NCBI GenBank assembly: GCA_013378335.1
Contig: CP040556.1
Span: forward strand, 992,001 to 1,056,000
Origin: Streptococcus sanguinis
Lineage (GTDB): Bacteria; Bacillota; Bacilli; Lactobacillales; Streptococcaceae
Direction of reading: 5' to 3'
Length of the DNA stretch: 64,000 bases
Made by a program: the position numbers and the translations under genes. The notes below the pieces were generated by a model. That model was not told the origin of the DNA. It saw only the letters and a list, made by a program, of their open reading frames with translations, and searched no databases. Of this stretch, positions 6,265-48,649 are shown in pieces (position 1 is the stretch's first letter; each line of letters starts with the position of its first letter).

Positions 6265-6375
6265 GGGATGTATGTAATAATAATTTAAATAAATTCAGAT
6301 AACCAAGGTTATGGATAATATGTTTATGAAATCGTGATAATGAGAACTTATCTATGGATGAGCAGGAATTTATAT

Positions 6376-6406
6376 TTGTTCAGAATTATAACTATTGTAC
6401 TATAAT
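6376..6406 (+). promoter_or_regulatory. Possible promoter of the PD-(D/E)XK-like gene
   Basis: TTGTTC (6376-6381), a long 19 bp spacer and consensus TATAAT (6401-6406). The -10 is convincing and the -35 is weak. Confidence 0.45.
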
Positions 6407-6442
6407 TGAGAATGTTGAGAAAAAAATTTGGAAAGTGAGATA

Positions 6443-7129
6443 ATGATGTCTAATAAAACTAACATAGTAGGGTTTGAAAAAGAGTTTGCCAATGAATTTA
6501 AGAAACAGTTATTGCAACAATATTCGGAAAAAAATGTGATACCAGAATGTAAACTTGGAAATTTTAGAACTGATTTCGCAATTATAAAAGAAGATACAAA
6601 AGAAATTATTGCCATTTTCGAATTAAAAATGAGTAAAGCGGACTCCTTTAACCAACAACAATTGTCTGGCTTTAATAGTAGAATTAAACAACTTATTCAG
6701 ACTAATGGTATGGACGTCCCAGTTTATTATGTTTTAAAAAGCAATGAGGATCAAGTACCATTTACAGTTAATAGACTATTTCAAGAAGAGGATGATGAGC
6801 ACAAGTCCAAATTTACTTTCAAAGAGACAGATTTACCAACTTATGAAGATTTGTTAAGACGAAATTCTACTGCTGAAAATTATGAAAATAAGAAAAGCTT
6901 AAGAGAAGCTTTTAATAGATTGAAATTCATAAGCCCAATTCTAGCATTAATTATATTTGCTATATGGTTAATTTGTAAAATTTGTAAAATTGAACTAACT
7001 TGGATTGATTTAGCATTTTTGTTGACTAGTTCTATATTTGCCGTATTTCCTTTTGTGAAGAGGATTGATATTACACAATTAGGCTCAGTGGAGTTTAGAA
7101 GCGATGAACAAAGTTCAAAAGAGAAGTAA
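6443..7129 (+). CDS. Membrane-anchored protein with a PD-(D/E)XK nuclease-like N-terminus
   Basis: I do not recognise a named family. The protein is about 228 residues and markedly AT-rich compared with uvrB. The N-terminal part carries D44, followed 16 residues later by E60-L-K62 in a hydrophobic strand (IIAIFELK). This D-(X)n-ExK spacing fits the PD-(D/E)XK nuclease fold, as in HsdR N-termini. Two hydrophobic segments near 165-183 and 188-206 place the C-terminal end in the membrane, leaving the nuclease-like part probably cytoplasmic. ATG codons at 6443 and 6446 are both possible, with GTGAG ahead of them; a TTG at 6428 is less likely. A role in defence or DNA degradation is inference only. 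Confidence 0.6.
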   Translation: MMSNKTNIVGFEKEFANEFKKQLLQQYSEKNVIPECKLGNFRTDFAIIKEDTKEIIAIFELKMSKADSFNQQQLSGFNSRIKQLIQTNGMDVPVYYVLKSNEDQVPFTVNRLFQEEDDEHKSKFTFKETDLPTYEDLLRRNSTAENYENKKSLREAFNRLKFISPILALIIFAIWLICKICKIELTWIDLAFLLTSSIFAVFPFVKRIDITQLGSVEFRSDEQSSKEK

Positions 7130-7190
7130 TAGAATATCATCAGATATAACTTACTATTTTAGCCTTACTGAATAGATAAAAGGAGCACAC

Positions 7191-8267: not shown

Positions 8268-8687
8268 GTTATTTTCATTTAAAACACTCTATCTGGCCTT
8301 GCTAACCTTTGTCATTCTTCATTTGATTTTGTTAGCTTTTGGTCTATCCTTTACTCCGGTTTTGTGGAATAGCTGGTTTTTTATTCTTTGTTTGACCTTT
8401 TTTATCCATTCTTGGATAGTCTTTTTTAGGACAAGAGATTTTCATTGGTATCACCTCATTTTTGAATTATTCAGTGCACTAGTAGCACTTTATCTTTGGT
8501 TTTGGCATTCTTTGCTTTGTCAATCATTCCGAATCCAGCCATGCCTATCAATATAGACTATCATATACAAGATAAAGAAATCATCATTGTCAGAGGTTTT
8601 TTGGTCCATAGTACCTATGAACATCATGAATTGATTAATCCCTTTGTCATGAAGTCAGAAGTGAAATATAACGAAGATACGTTTTAA
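8245..8687 (+). pseudogene. Membrane protein of unknown function, frameshifted as read
   Basis: ATG 8245 overlaps the end of the previous gene and has a GAGGAAA site. Three hydrophobic segments run to about residue 84. After the three-T run at 8495-8497 the reading frame is lost and would stop at 8556. The next frame carries a further hydrophobic segment (LVLAFFALSIIPNP) and a soluble tail ending at 8687. One added T restores a 147-residue protein. It probably forms a pair with the preceding membrane gene. No family is recognised. Confidence 0.5.
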
Positions 8688-8710
8688 AAACTTAGAAAGC
8701 GAGTGAATCC

Positions 8711-9178
8711 ATGTCACGTTCCCAAGAAACAATCCTAACAAATATCTGCCTTGTTGAAGATGTGTCGCGCGGTCAACTTCTAATGCAATATCGCTCTCCT
8801 GAGCGCTATCGTTGGTCTGGATATGCCTTTCCTGGTGGGCATATTGAGAAGGGCGAGTCTCTCCATGATGCGGTTGTCCGTGAGATTTTAGAGGAAACGG
8901 GTTTGACTATTAGTCATCCAAAACTGGTCGGAGTTAAGAACTGGCATACGGATGAAGGGGTTCGCTACATCGTCTTTTGCTACAAAGCGACTGAATTCTC
9001 TGGTCAGATTCATTCGACAGAAGAGGGAGAGATTTCTTGGGTAGAAAAGGATAGCCTGCCACAGCTGGACTTGGCTTACGATATGCTTGAACTTCTGCGT
9101 ATGATGGAAGATGAGGAATTATCCGAATATTACTATCACGAGCACATCGAAGGTGGTTGGCGCAAGAGTATGTACTAA
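8711..9178 (+). CDS. NUDIX hydrolase (MutT/8-oxo-dGTP diphosphatase-like)
   Basis: This 155-residue protein has a complete NUDIX box near residues 43-65: GGHIEKGES, then REILEETGL, matching Gx5Ex7REUxEExGU. It should hydrolyse a nucleoside diphosphate linked to another group. The IVFCYKATEFSG stretch resembles streptococcal MutT-like 8-oxo-dGTP diphosphatases, but the substrate is inferred. A second copy of its last 345 bases lies at 10878-11222, beyond the FRG gene. Confidence 0.9.
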   Translation: MSRSQETILTNICLVEDVSRGQLLMQYRSPERYRWSGYAFPGGHIEKGESLHDAVVREILEETGLTISHPKLVGVKNWHTDEGVRYIVFCYKATEFSGQIHSTEEGEISWVEKDSLPQLDLAYDMLELLRMMEDEELSEYYYHEHIEGGWRKSMY

Positions 9179-9180
9179 AA
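8834..9180 (+). repeat. Direct repeat copy 1: 3' three-quarters of the NUDIX gene
   Basis: This segment matches 10878-11224 at a constant offset of 2044 bp with no gaps that I can see and roughly 15-16 substitutions, about 95% identity by eye. The match starts inside the NUDIX box coding region and ends just after the stop codon. Confidence 0.9.
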
Positions 9181-9619
9181 AGTGTTTCTTTTTGTGTCTG
9201 AAGTGCAAAGATAGAAAGGTAGATGGCTGTGATGATTTCACTATGAATTGCTATTGTTGCATTTTTTGGGGGGAGGTTAAACCATTTTTCCTTCTAGAAA
9301 TGCTTGTTTCGGTTCGAGATTTCCGTCTGCATTTTAAAAATAGCTTTATACTTTTATCACTGTTTTTGAGTTCTTTCTAGCAGTTGTTTATCATGCAATA
9401 GAAATAGGATATGAATAAGAATTTTCGACAGCATTCCTACTAATAATAGTAAGACCAGTAACCAAAGAAATAAAAAAATGTTGAAAGAGTTGTCGTGGAT
9501 CACTTGGAGCTATTTAGTATCATTTATAAAAAAATCAGAAGAGGATTTTTGAGTCTCTTTCTGTTAGAAAATGTGTTATAATGAATTTATTATAGCTATT
9601 CTAATGGAGAGGAAATTAG
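9179..9619. other. AT-rich spacer before the FRG gene
   Basis: About 440 bases with no convincing gene; an open frame at 9111-9380 only runs on from the NUDIX gene out of frame. A small terminator-like hairpin (AAAATC/GATTTT plus a T-run, 9529-9551) and the FRG promoter are at the right end. Base composition differs from the flanking NUDIX copies. Confidence 0.6.
9574..9582 (+). promoter_or_regulatory. Extended -10 promoter of the FRG gene
   Basis: TGTTATAAT is an extended -10 (TGn plus TATAAT at 9577-9582), 38 bases before the ATG. No good -35 is visible at the usual spacing. A strong GGAGAGGA ribosome site follows at 9606-9613. Confidence 0.6.
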
Positions 9620-10816
9620 ATGCAAAGACAAATGGATAAACCTTTTAAGGTAGAATCGGTTACTGAATTTCTGAATTGTATTATTGAAGGGACGAGAGAA
9701 GCTCAAACAAAATATAATTTCTATTATCGAGGGGAAAAGCAATATTATCCACTGCGATTGCCAAATTTTTATACGCATGAACATAGTGAAAAATTAGTAA
9801 GGCAAGGATCGGAGTTTTATTACCGTTCATTAATTAATGAGTTAGGTAGAGCTGATTATAGTGATAGCTTTTCATTATTTCAATTATTGTCTGAATTGCA
9901 ACACTATGAAGCTAAAACAAGAATGCTTGATATTTCTTCAAATCCGTTAGTTGCTTTATATTTTGCAACTGAGGAAAACAATGGTGTACAGAAAAATACA
10001 GAAGACTATGAATCAGATGGCCATATTTACATATTCGGTGAAGAAATTAATCATGAAAAATTTGATACTGGTCATACTGTAGCTATAAAAAGTGCTCTAA
10101 ATCTTATTTCTCAAGAGAAAATAAATACTTTCATAATCATTATGAGTAAGCTAATTGCAAATTTAGGTGACAGAGATGGTTTAATTCGCTATAAAAATGG
10201 TAGAAATAGATATTTTCTTTATGAAAGCATCAATGAATTATTAGATGAAGCATGTCTTTGGTCGGATTTTTTAGAACTAAAGAATGAAAATCAGTGGATT
10301 TTTTTTGGAATACCATTAGAGGTAATTTTAAAGAAAGATGAATATGATGCATTTTGTGCGGAAGTTAATGATTTAGATTCTAGTGATTCAAATAAAGTTT
10401 TGAGAAATGCTCTTCAGCAGATACTTGAAGAATTTTTAGAACTAATTAACCAAAGAGCGAAATTAAGTGAAAAATTGAGATATCCTGTTAGAATATATGA
10501 AGATTTAACAGATGCACATATTATGCTATCATCAAAAAGAACAGATCGATTAAGACAGCAACAAGGGGCGTTTATATATCCGCGCTTTACTAATGCAGAT
10601 ATTAGTAAAGCATTTGACGACATTAAAAAAGAAATTCATAATTCAATTATAGAAAAAGCAATGTCAATAAGGATAGGAGATAAAGAATATTCTCATATTG
10701 TGATTCCAAATGATAAGAAGAAAGTTATTCAGAACGAATTGTCTTTAATTGGAGTAGATGAAGGATTTATTTATCCTGATATTAGACATCGTTCCAGTGC
10801 ATTATTAAATCGATAA
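9620..10816 (+). CDS. FRG domain protein, accessory gene inserted in the NUDIX locus
   Basis: This 398-residue soluble protein is very AT-rich. The FRG domain is recognisable: YRGEK at 36-40, QHYEAKTRMLDISSNPL at 94-110 followed by VALYFAT, and RLRQQQGAFIYPRF near 310-323. FRG proteins are scattered through bacterial genomes, often in accessory and phage-defence regions; their biochemistry is not established. Sequence between the FRG blocks (about 150-300) is lineage-specific and I do not recognise another domain. The gene has its own promoter and ribosome site and is bracketed by two copies of the NUDIX 3' end, so it arrived as a unit. A defence role is inference. Confidence 0.8.
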   Translation: MQRQMDKPFKVESVTEFLNCIIEGTREAQTKYNFYYRGEKQYYPLRLPNFYTHEHSEKLVRQGSEFYYRSLINELGRADYSDSFSLFQLLSELQHYEAKTRMLDISSNPLVALYFATEENNGVQKNTEDYESDGHIYIFGEEINHEKFDTGHTVAIKSALNLISQEKINTFIIIMSKLIANLGDRDGLIRYKNGRNRYFLYESINELLDEACLWSDFLELKNENQWIFFGIPLEVILKKDEYDAFCAEVNDLDSSDSNKVLRNALQQILEEFLELINQRAKLSEKLRYPVRIYEDLTDAHIMLSSKRTDRLRQQQGAFIYPRFTNADISKAFDDIKKEIHNSIIEKAMSIRIGDKEYSHIVIPNDKKKVIQNELSLIGVDEGFIYPDIRHRSSALLNR

Positions 10817-10877
10817 GAAGAATGATTAATAATCACTATCTAGATTAACTGCATTAAATTACATTAACTTAAGAACA

Positions 10878-11222
10878 GGTGGGCATATTGAGAAGGGTGA
10901 GTCTCTCCATGATTCAGTTGTCCGTGAGATTTTAGAGGAAACGGGTTTGACTATTAGTCATCCGAAATTGGTCGGAGTTAAGAACTGGCATACGGATGAA
11001 GGGGTTCGCTACATCGTCTTTTGTTACAAAGCAACCGAATTTTCTGGTCAGATTCACTCGACTGAAGAGGGTGAGATTTCTTGGGTAGACAAGGATAGCC
11101 TGCCACAGCTGGACTTGGCTTACGATATGCTTGAACTTCTGCGTATGATGGAAGATGAGGAATTATCTGAATATTACTATCACGAGCGCATAGAAGGTGG
11201 TTGGCGCAAGAGTATGTACTAA
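10878..11222 (+). pseudogene. Truncated second copy of the NUDIX hydrolase gene
   Basis: The fragment lacks the first 41 codons and its own start, and begins inside the NUDIX box at GGHIEKGES. From there it is colinear with the intact gene to the same stop codon. An internal ATG at 10947 could start a 91-residue product, but that would lack the REUxEE catalytic helix. The original terminator of the locus follows this copy and not the intact one, so this is likely the resident 3' end. Confidence 0.85.
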
Positions 11223-11224
11223 AA
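10878..11224 (+). repeat. Direct repeat copy 2: 3' three-quarters of the NUDIX gene
   Basis: Second member of the pair with 8834-9180. Most differences are synonymous (for example GGC/GGT and TGC/TGT third positions), as expected of a related allele rather than a very recent exact duplication. Confidence 0.9.
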
Positions 11225-11225
11225 A

Positions 11226-11260
11226 GACTGACTAGGTTGGGGCCTAATCAGTCTTTTTTT
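11226..11260 (+). terminator. Bidirectional terminator between the NUDIX fragment and niaR
   Basis: An 11-bp stem (GACTGACTAGG/CCTAATCAGTC, one mismatch) with loop TTGGGG is followed by seven T on the plus strand. The minus-strand side has five T, so it can also serve niaR. Confidence 0.85.
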
Positions 11261-11265
11261 GTTCT

Positions 11266-11778
11266 TTATTCTTGTAAAAATCCTAGGTCTCTCAAGGCGG
11301 CTTCTACATAGTCCAAATCCTGCTGGGAGTCGGCTTGTACTAGGTGATAGTGGACTCCATCTGTTAGCTCAGATAAGGGGCGAAAGGCACAGGATGCGAC
11401 CTGTTGGAGAAAATGTTGGACATCGCGGCGGCAGGTCAGCTTCAGGTAAGTCTGGATTTCGCCGTAAACCGGGTGCTCAATCAAAATAGTCTGTACGCGT
11501 CCGCCATTATCCACGATAGCCAGCAGCTCAGCTTCCATATCCTCAGCCCTATGCTGAACCTTGAATAGCTGATGAACAGCAGTGCTTTCTTGGCGGTCTT
11601 TATAAAGATAGCCACGGTTGGTTGAGAGGATGGGTGCGCCGTCTGCCCGCAAGAGGGCGATATCTTGCACAATAATCTGCCTAGTCACATGAAAATGTTC
11701 CGCCAGTGACTGGCCATTGAGGGCAGTAGATGATGTTTTCAAAAGGTCTAATAGTTCTTCTCGTCTTTGCTTGGTCAT
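11266..11778 (-). CDS. niaR: Niacin-responsive transcriptional repressor NiaR
   Basis: The 170-residue protein has an N-terminal HTH_11 winged helix (QRREELLDLLKTSS, then LAEHFHVTRQIIVQDI) and a C-terminal 3H domain with the histidines typical of nicotinic-acid sensing (HPVYGE, HYHLV). NiaR represses niacin uptake and NAD-synthesis genes when niacin is plentiful. It lies 38 bases behind niaX on the same strand, so the sensor and its main target probably share one mRNA. I prefer ATG 11778; an in-frame TTG at 11796 is possible, and neither has a strong ribosome site. Confidence 0.9.
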   Translation of the reverse strand: MTKQRREELLDLLKTSSTALNGQSLAEHFHVTRQIIVQDIALLRADGAPILSTNRGYLYKDRQESTAVHQLFKVQHRAEDMEAELLAIVDNGGRVQTILIEHPVYGEIQTYLKLTCRRDVQHFLQQVASCAFRPLSELTDGVHYHLVQADSQQDLDYVEAALRDLGFLQE

Positions 11779-11816
11779 GGTTTCATTGTAAACCAAAAGT
11801 CAGGAATCTTCAAGCT

Positions 11817-12341
11817 CTAGCGAATCTTTTTCAGTGCTTGATAGATGAATTTAGCAATGACAAAGTCGACCATGCTATGGATGACCGTACCAAGTCCAAC
11901 CAGACCAAATAAGATATAGAAAGCATTAGCTGGATAGGCAGAAGTCGTGTAAAAGAGGATGCAGACGACCGCTTCGCCAAAGGCATGAATCAAGGCCAGT
12001 AGGAAATTAAATATCCAAGTCTTCTTCTGGCTGTCCAGTGTGTCCGGGTGCTTTTGCAGATAAAGAGCGCCGATGCTAGCGAAGAGCAAGTGGGATAGGG
12101 CTCTGAGCGTGATGATAAAAGGAAGTCCGGACATTCCAAACCCAATAGCAGAACCAATCACGACAATCACCGTCATGAGAGGGGAGATAAACATAGCCAA
12201 AAAGATAGCGACATGGCTGGCTAAGGTGAAGGAAGCGGGCGGAATGACAATTTTAATTGGCATAACCAGCGGGATAACAATAGCTAGTGCAGTCAAAAAA
12301 GCGGTCAGTGTCATAAACTGATTTTTAGATTTTGGTTTCAT
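11817..12341 (-). CDS. niaX: Niacin ECF transporter substrate-binding subunit NiaX
   Basis: This 174-residue integral membrane protein has about five or six hydrophobic helices and the streptococcal NiaX pattern (FMTLTAFLTALAIVIPL, then the IKIVIPPASFTLASH loop). It is the substrate-capture component of an energy-coupling-factor transporter for niacin and depends on the shared EcfA/EcfT module encoded elsewhere. The adjacent niaR supports the niacin assignment. The ribosome site AAAAAGGAG lies just ahead of the ATG. Confidence 0.88.
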   Translation of the reverse strand: MKPKSKNQFMTLTAFLTALAIVIPLVMPIKIVIPPASFTLASHVAIFLAMFISPLMTVIVVIGSAIGFGMSGLPFIITLRALSHLLFASIGALYLQKHPDTLDSQKKTWIFNFLLALIHAFGEAVVCILFYTTSAYPANAFYILFGLVGLGTVIHSMVDFVIAKFIYQALKKIR

Positions 12342-47527: not shown

Positions 47528-48649
47528 ATGACGGAAGAAAGAAAAGCACCTGCTATTCGTTTCAAAGAATTTTCAGGTCAAAATGCGGAAGCTTGGGAAC
47601 AGCGGAAGTTGGAGGAGGTCGTGGAAGTTAATAGTGGAAAAGATTATAAACATCTGTCTACGGGTACGATCCCTGTCTATGGTACAGGTGGGTACATGCT
47701 TTCTGTTTCAGAATCACTCTCAGATGTTGATGGCATCGGTATTGGTAGAAAAGGAACGATAGATAAACCATATATTTTAAAAGCTCCATTTTGGACTGTT
47801 GATACTTTATTTTACTGTATACCAAAAGATGCTAATAATCTTTATTTTGTTTATTCTGTTTTTAATAATGTTACTTGGAAAAATCTTGATGAATCGACAG
47901 GGGTTCCATCTTTGTCAAAAATTACTATCAATAATATTCAATCCTTTTTCCCCACCCCTCCTGAACAAAGGGTCATTGGTAGCTTCTTCCAAGAGTTAGA
48001 CCAGCTCATTACCCTTCAACAGCGTAAGCTCGAAAAAAGCCGTCGTATCAAAAAGGCCATGTTGCAAAAGATGTTTCCAGGGAATAAACAAACTGTTCCG
48101 GCTATTCGTTTCAAAGAATTTTCAGGTGTCGCTTGGAAAAAGTGGAAGTTGGAGGAAGTGGCAGATAGATTTGATAATTTGCGAATACCAGTATCTGCAA
48201 ACAAAAGAAAATCTGGTTCCATTCCATACTATGGGGCTAACGGAATACAAGATTATGTAGATGGTTATACTCATGATGGGGAATATGTTCTGATTGCTGA
48301 AGATGGTGCTAATGATCTAAAAGATTATCCGATTCAATATGTTAATGGGAAAGTTTGGGTTAATAATCATGCTCATGTAGTACAGGGACGAAGTAAAATG
48401 GTAGATACTAAGTTTTTGGCATTTGCAATGAAACAAATTAATTTTAAACCATATTTAGTTGGTGGCGGTAGAGCAAAACTTAATGCAGATATCATGATGA
48501 AATTACCTTTAAAACTCCCTACCCCTCCCGAACAAAGGGCTATTGGCAGTTTCTTCCAAGATCTGGACAAGTTCATTACCCTTCAACAGTGTAGACTGGA
48601 CAAACTGCAGAATATGAAAAAAGCTTTACTTGAACAAATGATGATGTAA
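47528..48649 (+). CDS. hsdS: Type I restriction-modification specificity subunit HsdS
   Basis: HsdS recognises a bipartite DNA target through two target-recognition domains. In this 373-residue protein TRD1 spans about 20-140 and TRD2 about 200-335. Each is preceded by a copy of PAIRFKEFSG and followed by a copy of PPEQRxIGSFFQxLDxxITLQQ, which begins the helical spacer. The repeats are also conserved at DNA level (around 47555 and 48103; around 47955 and 48525). The start is one base after the hsdM stop. No second hsdS or recombinase is seen. Confidence 0.93.
   Translation: MTEERKAPAIRFKEFSGQNAEAWEQRKLEEVVEVNSGKDYKHLSTGTIPVYGTGGYMLSVSESLSDVDGIGIGRKGTIDKPYILKAPFWTVDTLFYCIPKDANNLYFVYSVFNNVTWKNLDESTGVPSLSKITINNIQSFFPTPPEQRVIGSFFQELDQLITLQQRKLEKSRRIKKAMLQKMFPGNKQTVPAIRFKEFSGVAWKKWKLEEVADRFDNLRIPVSANKRKSGSIPYYGANGIQDYVDGYTHDGEYVLIAEDGANDLKDYPIQYVNGKVWVNNHAHVVQGRSKMVDTKFLAFAMKQINFKPYLVGGGRAKLNADIMMKLPLKLPTPPEQRAIGSFFQDLDKFITLQQCRLDKLQNMKKALLEQMMM

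Follow-up and report, generated by a model that had tools for sequence, protein, structure and literature searches.

Variable cargo between duplicated NUDIX gene ends at the NUDIX–niaR junction of Streptococcus

The cargo locus of Streptococcus sanguinis

This study concerns a 64,000-nucleotide stretch of Streptococcus sanguinis DNA (NCBI GenBank assembly GCA_013378335.1, contig CP040556.1, positions 992,001–1,056,000 of the forward strand; hereafter the window), which comes from a Streptococcus genome of one contig (2.35 Mb). In this window, a gene for an FRG-domain protein lies between an intact NUDIX hydrolase gene and a second, truncated copy of the end of the same gene, and comparison with other Streptococcus genomes suggests that the junction between NUDIX and the convergent niaR gene has been reused for different cargo. 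The order of genes is uvrB, an open reading frame (ORF) at 6428–7129, a DUF1697 gene, two small membrane-looking ORFs, NUDIX, the relic of an older cassette, and FRG, followed by the NUDIX 3' copy, a terminator, and two genes on the opposite strand which we take to be niaR (11266–11796) and niaX (11817–12341). The window uvrB, niaR, and niaX genes are about 92–97% identical to those of S. sanguinis-type siblings. The features of the site are as follows.

8711–9178, plus strand: intact NUDIX hydrolase gene, left border of the cargo site (ORF of 155 amino acids; Pfam PF00293, 4.8e-18)
8834–9178, plus strand: left repeat copy, the NUDIX 3' end (direct-repeat match)
9179–9334, plus strand: degraded 5' portion of an SdpI-like small membrane-protein gene, remnant of an older cassette (DNA likeness to siblings)
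9335–9619, plus strand: AT-rich spacer 5' of FRG, possible promoter (31.1% GC for 9179–9619)
9620–10816, plus strand: FRG-domain gene, cargo (398 amino acids; Pfam PF08867, 2.1e-13; PADLOC PDC-S15, 4.1e-34)
10817–10877, plus strand: cargo segment reaching the right junction (unmatched in 12 sibling loci)
10878–11222, plus strand: 5'-truncated second copy of the NUDIX 3' end, right border (95.4% identical to 8834–9178)
11220–11262, no strand assigned: native terminator hairpin between NUDIX and niaR (fold of -18.8 kcal/mol)
11266–11796, minus strand: niaR-type regulator, convergent right flank (Pfam 3H, 9.4e-32; HTH_11, 1.5e-14)
11817–12341, minus strand: niaX-type gene, edge of the control interval (without Pfam match)

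An initial annotation, made from the letters of the window, had noted that the last 345 bases of NUDIX recur 2044 bp downstream at about 95% identity. This was confirmed: 8834–9178 and 10878–11222 differ at 16 of 345 positions, and the likeness extends a few bases beyond the NUDIX stop (positions 124–472; all repeat positions are numbered along NUDIX, the gene being 1–468). No other direct repeat of comparable length and identity was found in the window, and the NUDIX gene has just two DNA matches genome-wide at E ≤ 0.001, which are the two copies. Weaker direct repeats lie at 47949–48057/48516–48624 (77%) and 744–847/1482–1585 (71%). The hairpin and T-run after the second copy, proposed at the outset to be the native terminator, are kept at the single NUDIX end of all eight empty sibling loci described below, and a strict terminator scan did not list this hairpin.

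The differences between the two copies are mostly silent (12/16), as had been stated. The remaining four fall in three codons, namely 54 (A/S, with two differences), 112 (E/D), and 145 (H/R). At codons 112 and 145 the intact left copy deviates from all 12 siblings and the truncated copy shows their usual residue, while the siblings disagree among themselves at codon 54. The truncated copy keeps an open frame through 115 codons, and none of its amino-acid changes is private when it is compared with the 12 siblings. Among 11 S. sanguinis-type siblings, the same stretch shows a mean identity of 92.2% (range 89.0–100), i.e., a mean divergence of 7.8%, and the window copies diverge by 4.6%. Because the frame is open, private amino-acid changes are absent, and the divergence is within the sibling range, the copies look like two alleles of different lineages rather than a gene and an old pseudogene.

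The FRG gene has a GC content of 29.6%, compared with 42.2% for the window. Its protein belongs to the FRG family (PF08867, 51.4 bits against a cut-off of 25), and its best PDC-S15 match in PADLOC, which gives no cut-off, scores 116.3 bits. Arg37 and Glu39 do not vary among 32 aligned relatives, and FRG proteins with 98–99% identity (P0002–P0005) exist. An AlphaFold model was obtained with a predicted local distance difference test (pLDDT) score of 86 and a predicted template modeling (pTM) score of 0.85, and Foldseek returned no match to this fold at E ≤ 0.001. Frg has been assigned to the ADP-ribosyltransferase superfamily (PMC9503650, available in part), and the window protein may be weakly ADP-ribosyltransferase-like. 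Based on family membership and a weak fold match, it is probably an anti-phage effector that works on its own, and it might act on nicotinamide adenine dinucleotide (NAD+) or by ADP-ribosylation. The AT-rich character of the gene thus agrees with the initial annotation; the promoter of its own that had also been assigned to it does not stand out, since the candidate (TAGAAA-17-TATTAT at 9565–9593, 9/12 consensus positions) is one of 20 promoter-like matches in 8500–11900, not clearly above the 11.4 expected. FRG is the sole ORF longer than 100 amino acids between the copies, and no integrase or transposase gene is visible there, as had been noticed.

No phage record matched the window cargo DNA. 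When plasmids were searched with FRG using tblastn, 214 records were found, which all had identities below 60% and reached less than 80% coverage of the protein. Phage or plasmid cargo was rejected as a description of FRG on these weak, partial plasmid matches and the missing phage match. FRG relatives occur in 16/284 Streptococcus genomes. Nine of the 15 other FRG-bearing genomes were examined, seven of which lack a flanking direct repeat and two of which (G041 and G044) have one. In the latter two, a distant FRG gene lies directly 3' of an aldolase-like gene (fba, labelled by eye), and a 37–60 bp copy of the fba 3' end plus a terminator stands behind FRG, the same architecture as at NUDIX (L291 8901–8937/10351–10387 in G041; L292 9183–9242/10633–10691 in G044). 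Only G044 has a second fba end among 41 genomes around it, a sample to which G041 does not belong. In G217 (L290 7451–12161), which shares the neighbourhood of the window, an FRG gene is found immediately after uvrB, 5' of NUDIX.

It had been suggested that strains should be compared for empty sites and other cargo. Eight of the 12 sibling loci are empty (NUDIX, terminator, niaR) and the other four carry different cargo (G185, G187, G190, and G191), so that a uniform arrangement lacking any empty site, named beforehand as the outcome that would speak against an insertion, was not what the siblings show. In these four, a gene for a 95-amino-acid small membrane-like protein lies between NUDIX and a 25–33 bp NUDIX 3' copy. 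The protein has no Pfam match, and SdpI-like is our own label. In the window, 9179–9334, directly after NUDIX, is 85–86% identical over 156 bp to the start of this gene, and its reading frame is broken. Since the relic adjoins NUDIX, the FRG and SdpI-like cassettes have a left junction in common, and since the decayed SdpI-like start stands to the left of FRG, the window locus was assembled in no fewer than two steps. The original view, in which FRG was taken up by a single event between the gene and its copy, was rejected because of this older relic. In our reading the SdpI-like cassette arrived earlier, and a segment with FRG later covered or entered it. When the window flanks were joined across the copies, four of six sibling empty loci aligned end to end and two from base 73 or 201. 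Recombination between the two NUDIX copies would thus leave a clean empty site, so that cargo could also be lost.

The uvrB–DUF1697 interval (window 6265–7190) is a second variable spot. Its ORF at 6428–7129 was matched in 1/12 siblings (G195, 88%), and other siblings showing both uvrB and DUF1697 have about 0.56–1.9 kb of different DNA in the interval.

Survey of the site across the genus

A NUDIX match at E ≤ 1e-30 was found in 256/284 Streptococcus genomes, and one locus each was surveyed from 147 of them, those among the matches listed; L049 (the second G007 contig) and L139 (a shorter G109 stretch) were removed before counting. These loci comprise 110 of niaR type, 24 of thio type (with a thioesterase-like gene downstream, labelled by eye), and 13 unclassed, in which the stretch ran into a contig end or showed neither anchor gene. 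In the niaR type, 78/110 loci are empty, with a gap of 9–52 bp (L106, which has masked bases inside niaR, was counted as empty by hand), and 32/110 hold cargo. The cargo consists of FRG (1 locus, the window), the SdpI-like gene (4), a methyltransferase (MT; 8), an rbs-type operon (13), MT plus rbs (2), a YSIRK surface protein (3), and a lasso-peptide-like cluster (1). The view that the locus is a landing site for accessory, possibly defence, cargo was therefore borne out, with at least six kinds of cargo. The rbs-type label is based on LacI-family, ABC, and sugar-binding matches (the best NCBIfam match, RbsA, is below cut-off), RbsK, RbsD, and RbsC being labelled by eye; the lasso-peptide-like label is based on Asn_synthase and Transglut_core3/ABC matches, with NCBIfam matches below cut-off. 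No integrase was seen among the cargo ORFs examined.

A NUDIX-end repeat is present in 32/32 niaR-type cargo loci and 0/78 empty ones. Repeats were called by nearly the same rule in both rounds of the survey (blastn, same strand, start in the first 500 bases of the NUDIX region, score >35). As a control, the niaR–niaX interval measures 0–43 bp and is cargo-free in all 109 loci holding both genes. A long-standing tandem duplication of the NUDIX 3' end in a single lineage, unrelated to FRG, would agree with the fact that the FRG arrangement is readable in one genome only; with the strict coincidence of repeat and cargo, the intact frame of the truncated window copy, and a duplication without cargo in 0/12 siblings, we regard it as extremely unlikely.

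The same counts bear on the idea that FRG and NUDIX work together, one as an NAD-consuming effector and the other as an ADP-ribose-type hydrolase, and that selection keeps them adjacent. PADLOC matches NUDIX to PDC-S07 as well as FRG to PDC-S15, the G217 FRG gene also stands near NUDIX, and G260 has a broken NUDIX-like gene close to FRG. Yet NUDIX is present in 256 genomes and FRG relatives in only 16 of the 284, FRG is the cargo of a single niaR-type locus out of 32, and in G041 and G044 it is found at fba. Such a pairing is therefore highly improbable.

Seven of the thio-type loci are empty, with a gap of 103–122 bp, one holds a 7-kb insert (G234), and one is G063; the other 15 are considered below. 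In G063 (L047 6522–10794), two nearly full NUDIX genes (a repeat of 485 bp at 83%) enclose PDC-M12A/B genes (AAA/RloB-like, AbiLi-like) and an insertion-sequence fragment. G007 (L048, L049) has NUDIX copies near contig ends, one of which is followed by the same insertion-sequence fragment as in G063. In G054 (L046 5158–6468, minus strand), a gene for the streptosactin maturase GggB (above the NCBIfam cut-off) follows NUDIX, together with regulator-like and ABC-like ORFs, and a 63–65 bp repeat (87.7%) of the NUDIX end region lies about 4.1 kb downstream.

Borders, spread, and tandem arrays

The limits of the repeats differ between kinds of cargo, as listed below.

Window: 124–472
SdpI-like: 439/447–471
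MT: 295/318–465/469; G122 and G201, 318–577
rbs: 325/327–530/534; G245, 370–533
Tandem loci: start 316–327, end 469, where likeness to the first NUDIX region stops
YSIRK: 271/280–533/534
Lasso-like: 366–533

Repeats of niaR-type loci are about 25 to 349 bp long, and the target is duplicated on both sides in 32/32. Across the survey, repeats start between positions 12 and 452 and end between 465 and 577. Gene 3' ends are common integration sites, and the short repeats of the NUDIX end (25–33 bp) at SdpI-like loci might be expected of a site-specific element which uses this end as its attachment site and has lost its integrase. With starts and ends that vary so widely, however, there is no fixed core site, and neither an integrase among the cargo ORFs examined nor a phage match to the window cargo DNA was seen; a site-specific element is thus very unlikely, and we rejected it as the principal explanation on the varying limits and the lack of a visible integrase.

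Repeats ending near 533 extend beyond the stop codon and the intergenic gap and take in some 54 bases of the niaR end. Past 533, the rbs, YSIRK, and lasso-like loci carry the same 30–45 bases with some variation, so that 15 rbs, three YSIRK, and one lasso-like loci have one left border. It follows from these common bases that different cargo came to stand behind one border. A 25-base motif of this border (two mismatches allowed) occurs once each in 16/279 genomes, always at the NUDIX locus; these include G102 and G159, both of which end in a contig break, and leave out the rbs loci G088, G099, G101, and G168, whose border has more than two mismatches, G014 being absent from the motif table. 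At the right end, the 120 bases before the right copy of G109 (lasso-like) contain a 117-base match to G245 (rbs) at 88.9%, and a 49-base match to G169 (YSIRK) was also found, with none in the other 14 loci compared. The right end common to G245 and G109 is missing from the other 12 rbs-only loci. Patchy likeness of this kind would be expected if borders had been shuffled.

The MT cassettes of G122 and G201 (L141, L146) have a second form of left junction, about 100 bases beyond the NUDIX stop, where the cassette is joined to the niaR end at TCAATT, which is common to niaR and the cassette. Such a short match is suggestive of homology-facilitated illegitimate recombination, in which homology would pair one side, microhomology would join the other, and foreign DNA would be trapped beside NUDIX. 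This process has been described in S. pneumoniae, with 3–10 bp of microhomology at most junctions, and according to the same source it mostly inserts DNA while removing a stretch of similar length (PMC3240628, available in part). A duplication instead of a deletion is observed in 32/32 niaR-type cargo loci, and microhomology is legible only where both parents are known. We consider this process unlikely here.

Cassettes and flanks differ in their relatedness. Comparison of nine rbs and ten MT genomes revealed that rbs cassettes are on average 97.6% identical (36 pairs, 9 genomes) against 93.7% for niaR/X and 92.3% for uvrB (21 pairs with uvrB in the stretch), and that MT cassettes are 91–97% alike between species groups whose niaR/X are only 82–85% alike. 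On a niaR/X tree of 107 loci (excluding L106 and the tandem loci G104 and G227), a minimum of 18 switches between the empty and the filled state is required, at least 10 of them forced by starred branches, and one clade of 36 rows has 21 filled loci. The MT state alone is unclustered (8 changes, shuffled mean 7.8).

Both tandem loci, G104 and G227, have the order NUDIX, MT, partial NUDIX, niaR end, rbs, partial NUDIX, niaR. A one-clade origin of their arrays was rejected by the approximately unbiased (AU) test (p-AU of 1.4e-99 for MT and 1.8e-79 for rbs), and the two MT+rbs arrays were assembled independently. The tandem order is exactly what would result if the partial NUDIX copy of one locus crossed over with the NUDIX end of a second.

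A recombinational cargo site and its known relatives

Comparison of these genomes points to a site with diverse cargo, empty forms, duplications of variable length, a shared left border, and independent tandem arrays. We think it probable that the NUDIX–niaR junction is a site like a minimal mobile element, with long target duplications, which is filled and reshuffled by homologous recombination. The convergent junction would be the cargo site, and an intact NUDIX gene plus a second 3' end would keep both core genes whole. These streptococci are known as competent species, and cassettes may pass between strains in chromosomal DNA that such cells take up, entering by RecA-dependent crossing-over in the NUDIX or niaR arms or in a partial NUDIX copy. 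Founding insertions would be rarer one-crossover events that duplicate the gene end, with later spread by ordinary recombination in the flanking arms. Selection may contribute, as an insertion would spare both genes only if it falls within the gap or duplicates across it. We propose that all niaR-type cargo shows duplications because the NUDIX–niaR gap is about 10 bp in most loci, and that the wider gap of the thio type can therefore take cargo without duplication.

For the founding insertions, a single crossing-over fits the anatomy better than homology-facilitated illegitimate recombination. The Campbell-type arrangement of an intact gene, an insert, and a 5'-truncated copy in the same direction is found in the window and in 31 other niaR-type cargo loci. 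When circles from which part of a gene end was missing integrated in E. coli by single crossing-over, 56/60 clones had partial duplications by PCR, measuring 109–950 bp in the 14 clones sequenced (PMC3240628). That the donor of the founding insertions was circular is our guess.

Several observations weigh against a site filled by homologous recombination. The evidence for it is wholly comparative, and neither transfer nor loop-out was observed. The survey covers only 147 of the 256 NUDIX-bearing genomes, and 15/24 thio-type loci hold an ABC pair of 2.1–2.5 kb with no detected duplication. Two cassettes, in G063 and G109, carry traces of insertion sequences (ORFs read by eye). The empty/cargo state is clustered on the niaR/X tree (18 changes, shuffled mean 26.5), and part of the pattern is thus inheritance. 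The circular donor is a guess, and transforming DNA enters as single strands, according to the available part of PMC3784515.

A further point concerns the origin of the intact NUDIX copy, which the initial annotation derived, together with FRG, from a related strain. Joint import is plausible, and the comparison of G122 (filled) with G123 (empty), whose niaR/X are 98% and NUDIX genes 81% identical, was first taken as an import of NUDIX plus cargo. Among pairs with niaR/X of at least 97%, drawn from the same 107 loci as the tree, NUDIX identity has a median of 89.3% in 49 empty–empty pairs and 92.5% in 12 empty–cargo pairs (p = 0.72), so that discordance between NUDIX and its flank is no greater in cargo loci than in empty ones. 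Since NUDIX recombines anyway, also between empty loci, such discordance is unusable for joint import, and we dropped this line of evidence after the all-pairs control.

Both cargo between conserved genes and long target duplications are already known. Minimal mobile elements of Neisseria, reportedly described by Saunders and Snyder in 2002, need no mobility genes, and we know of no repeated border as part of them. The present site agrees with them in having variable cargo (32 loci) and empty forms (78) at the same genes and, in the window, neither integrase nor transposase, the insertion-sequence traces of G063 and G109 being set apart. The likeness also covers differing cassettes which lie between the same conserved genes and are apparently exchanged horizontally (PMC2649163, available in part). 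Transfer by natural transformation with recombination in the flanks is indicated here indirectly, by cassettes that are more alike than core genes and by the independent arrays. The niaR-type cassettes differ in being bordered by a repeat of the left core-gene end, and in standing in tandem with a partial copy between them.

Restriction-modification systems are reported by Nobusato et al. in 2000 to insert with long target duplication. Long duplications of variable size, seen by genome comparison, are a common feature of both (PMC3031569, available in part). In contrast, the NUDIX–niaR cargo is not restriction-modification (FRG, sugar operon, methyltransferase, surface protein, and peptide cluster), and one locus is reused. 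Orphan immunity arrays of the Vibrio cholerae type VI secretion system resemble the site in stepwise insertion for which no integrase is known, remnants of older modules, and arrays; there, effectors are displaced and immunity genes kept, whereas here the core gene is intact and its 3' end repeated (PMC5361080, available in part). Merodiploids formed by transformation of S. pneumoniae are likewise duplications that arise without an active transposase, but they are tandem duplications of about 100–900 kb between repeats rather than small cassettes (PMC3784515).

In the open-licence literature searched, by titles and abstract starts, no description of NUDIX–niaR as a cargo site was found. Within that literature we have not found described for this locus a site that is used repeatedly and combines long duplications and variable cargo with a common border and tandem arrays.

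It is possible, though we offer it tentatively, that the locus acts as an integron-like array without a recombinase, in which the fresh NUDIX 3' end of each cassette would be a RecA landing pad for gain and loss. Unlike an integron, the array has NUDIX at its head, and no integrase was found among the ORFs examined. If this is true, streptococci would keep at the site a reserve of genes for defence, metabolism, and competition that expands and contracts.

Whether gene ends are repeated as a side effect of selection for whole neighbours or serve as working landing pads is a testable question. Sites like NUDIX–niaR are missed by integrase-based searches; a suitable search rule would be to look for core genes whose 3' end is partly copied, in the same direction, a few kilobases downstream, a pattern that the FRG genes at fba in G041 and G044 fit. 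A site reused in this way apparently lets commensal streptococci exchange genes for defence, sugar uptake, surface proteins, and peptides without a dedicated mobile element.

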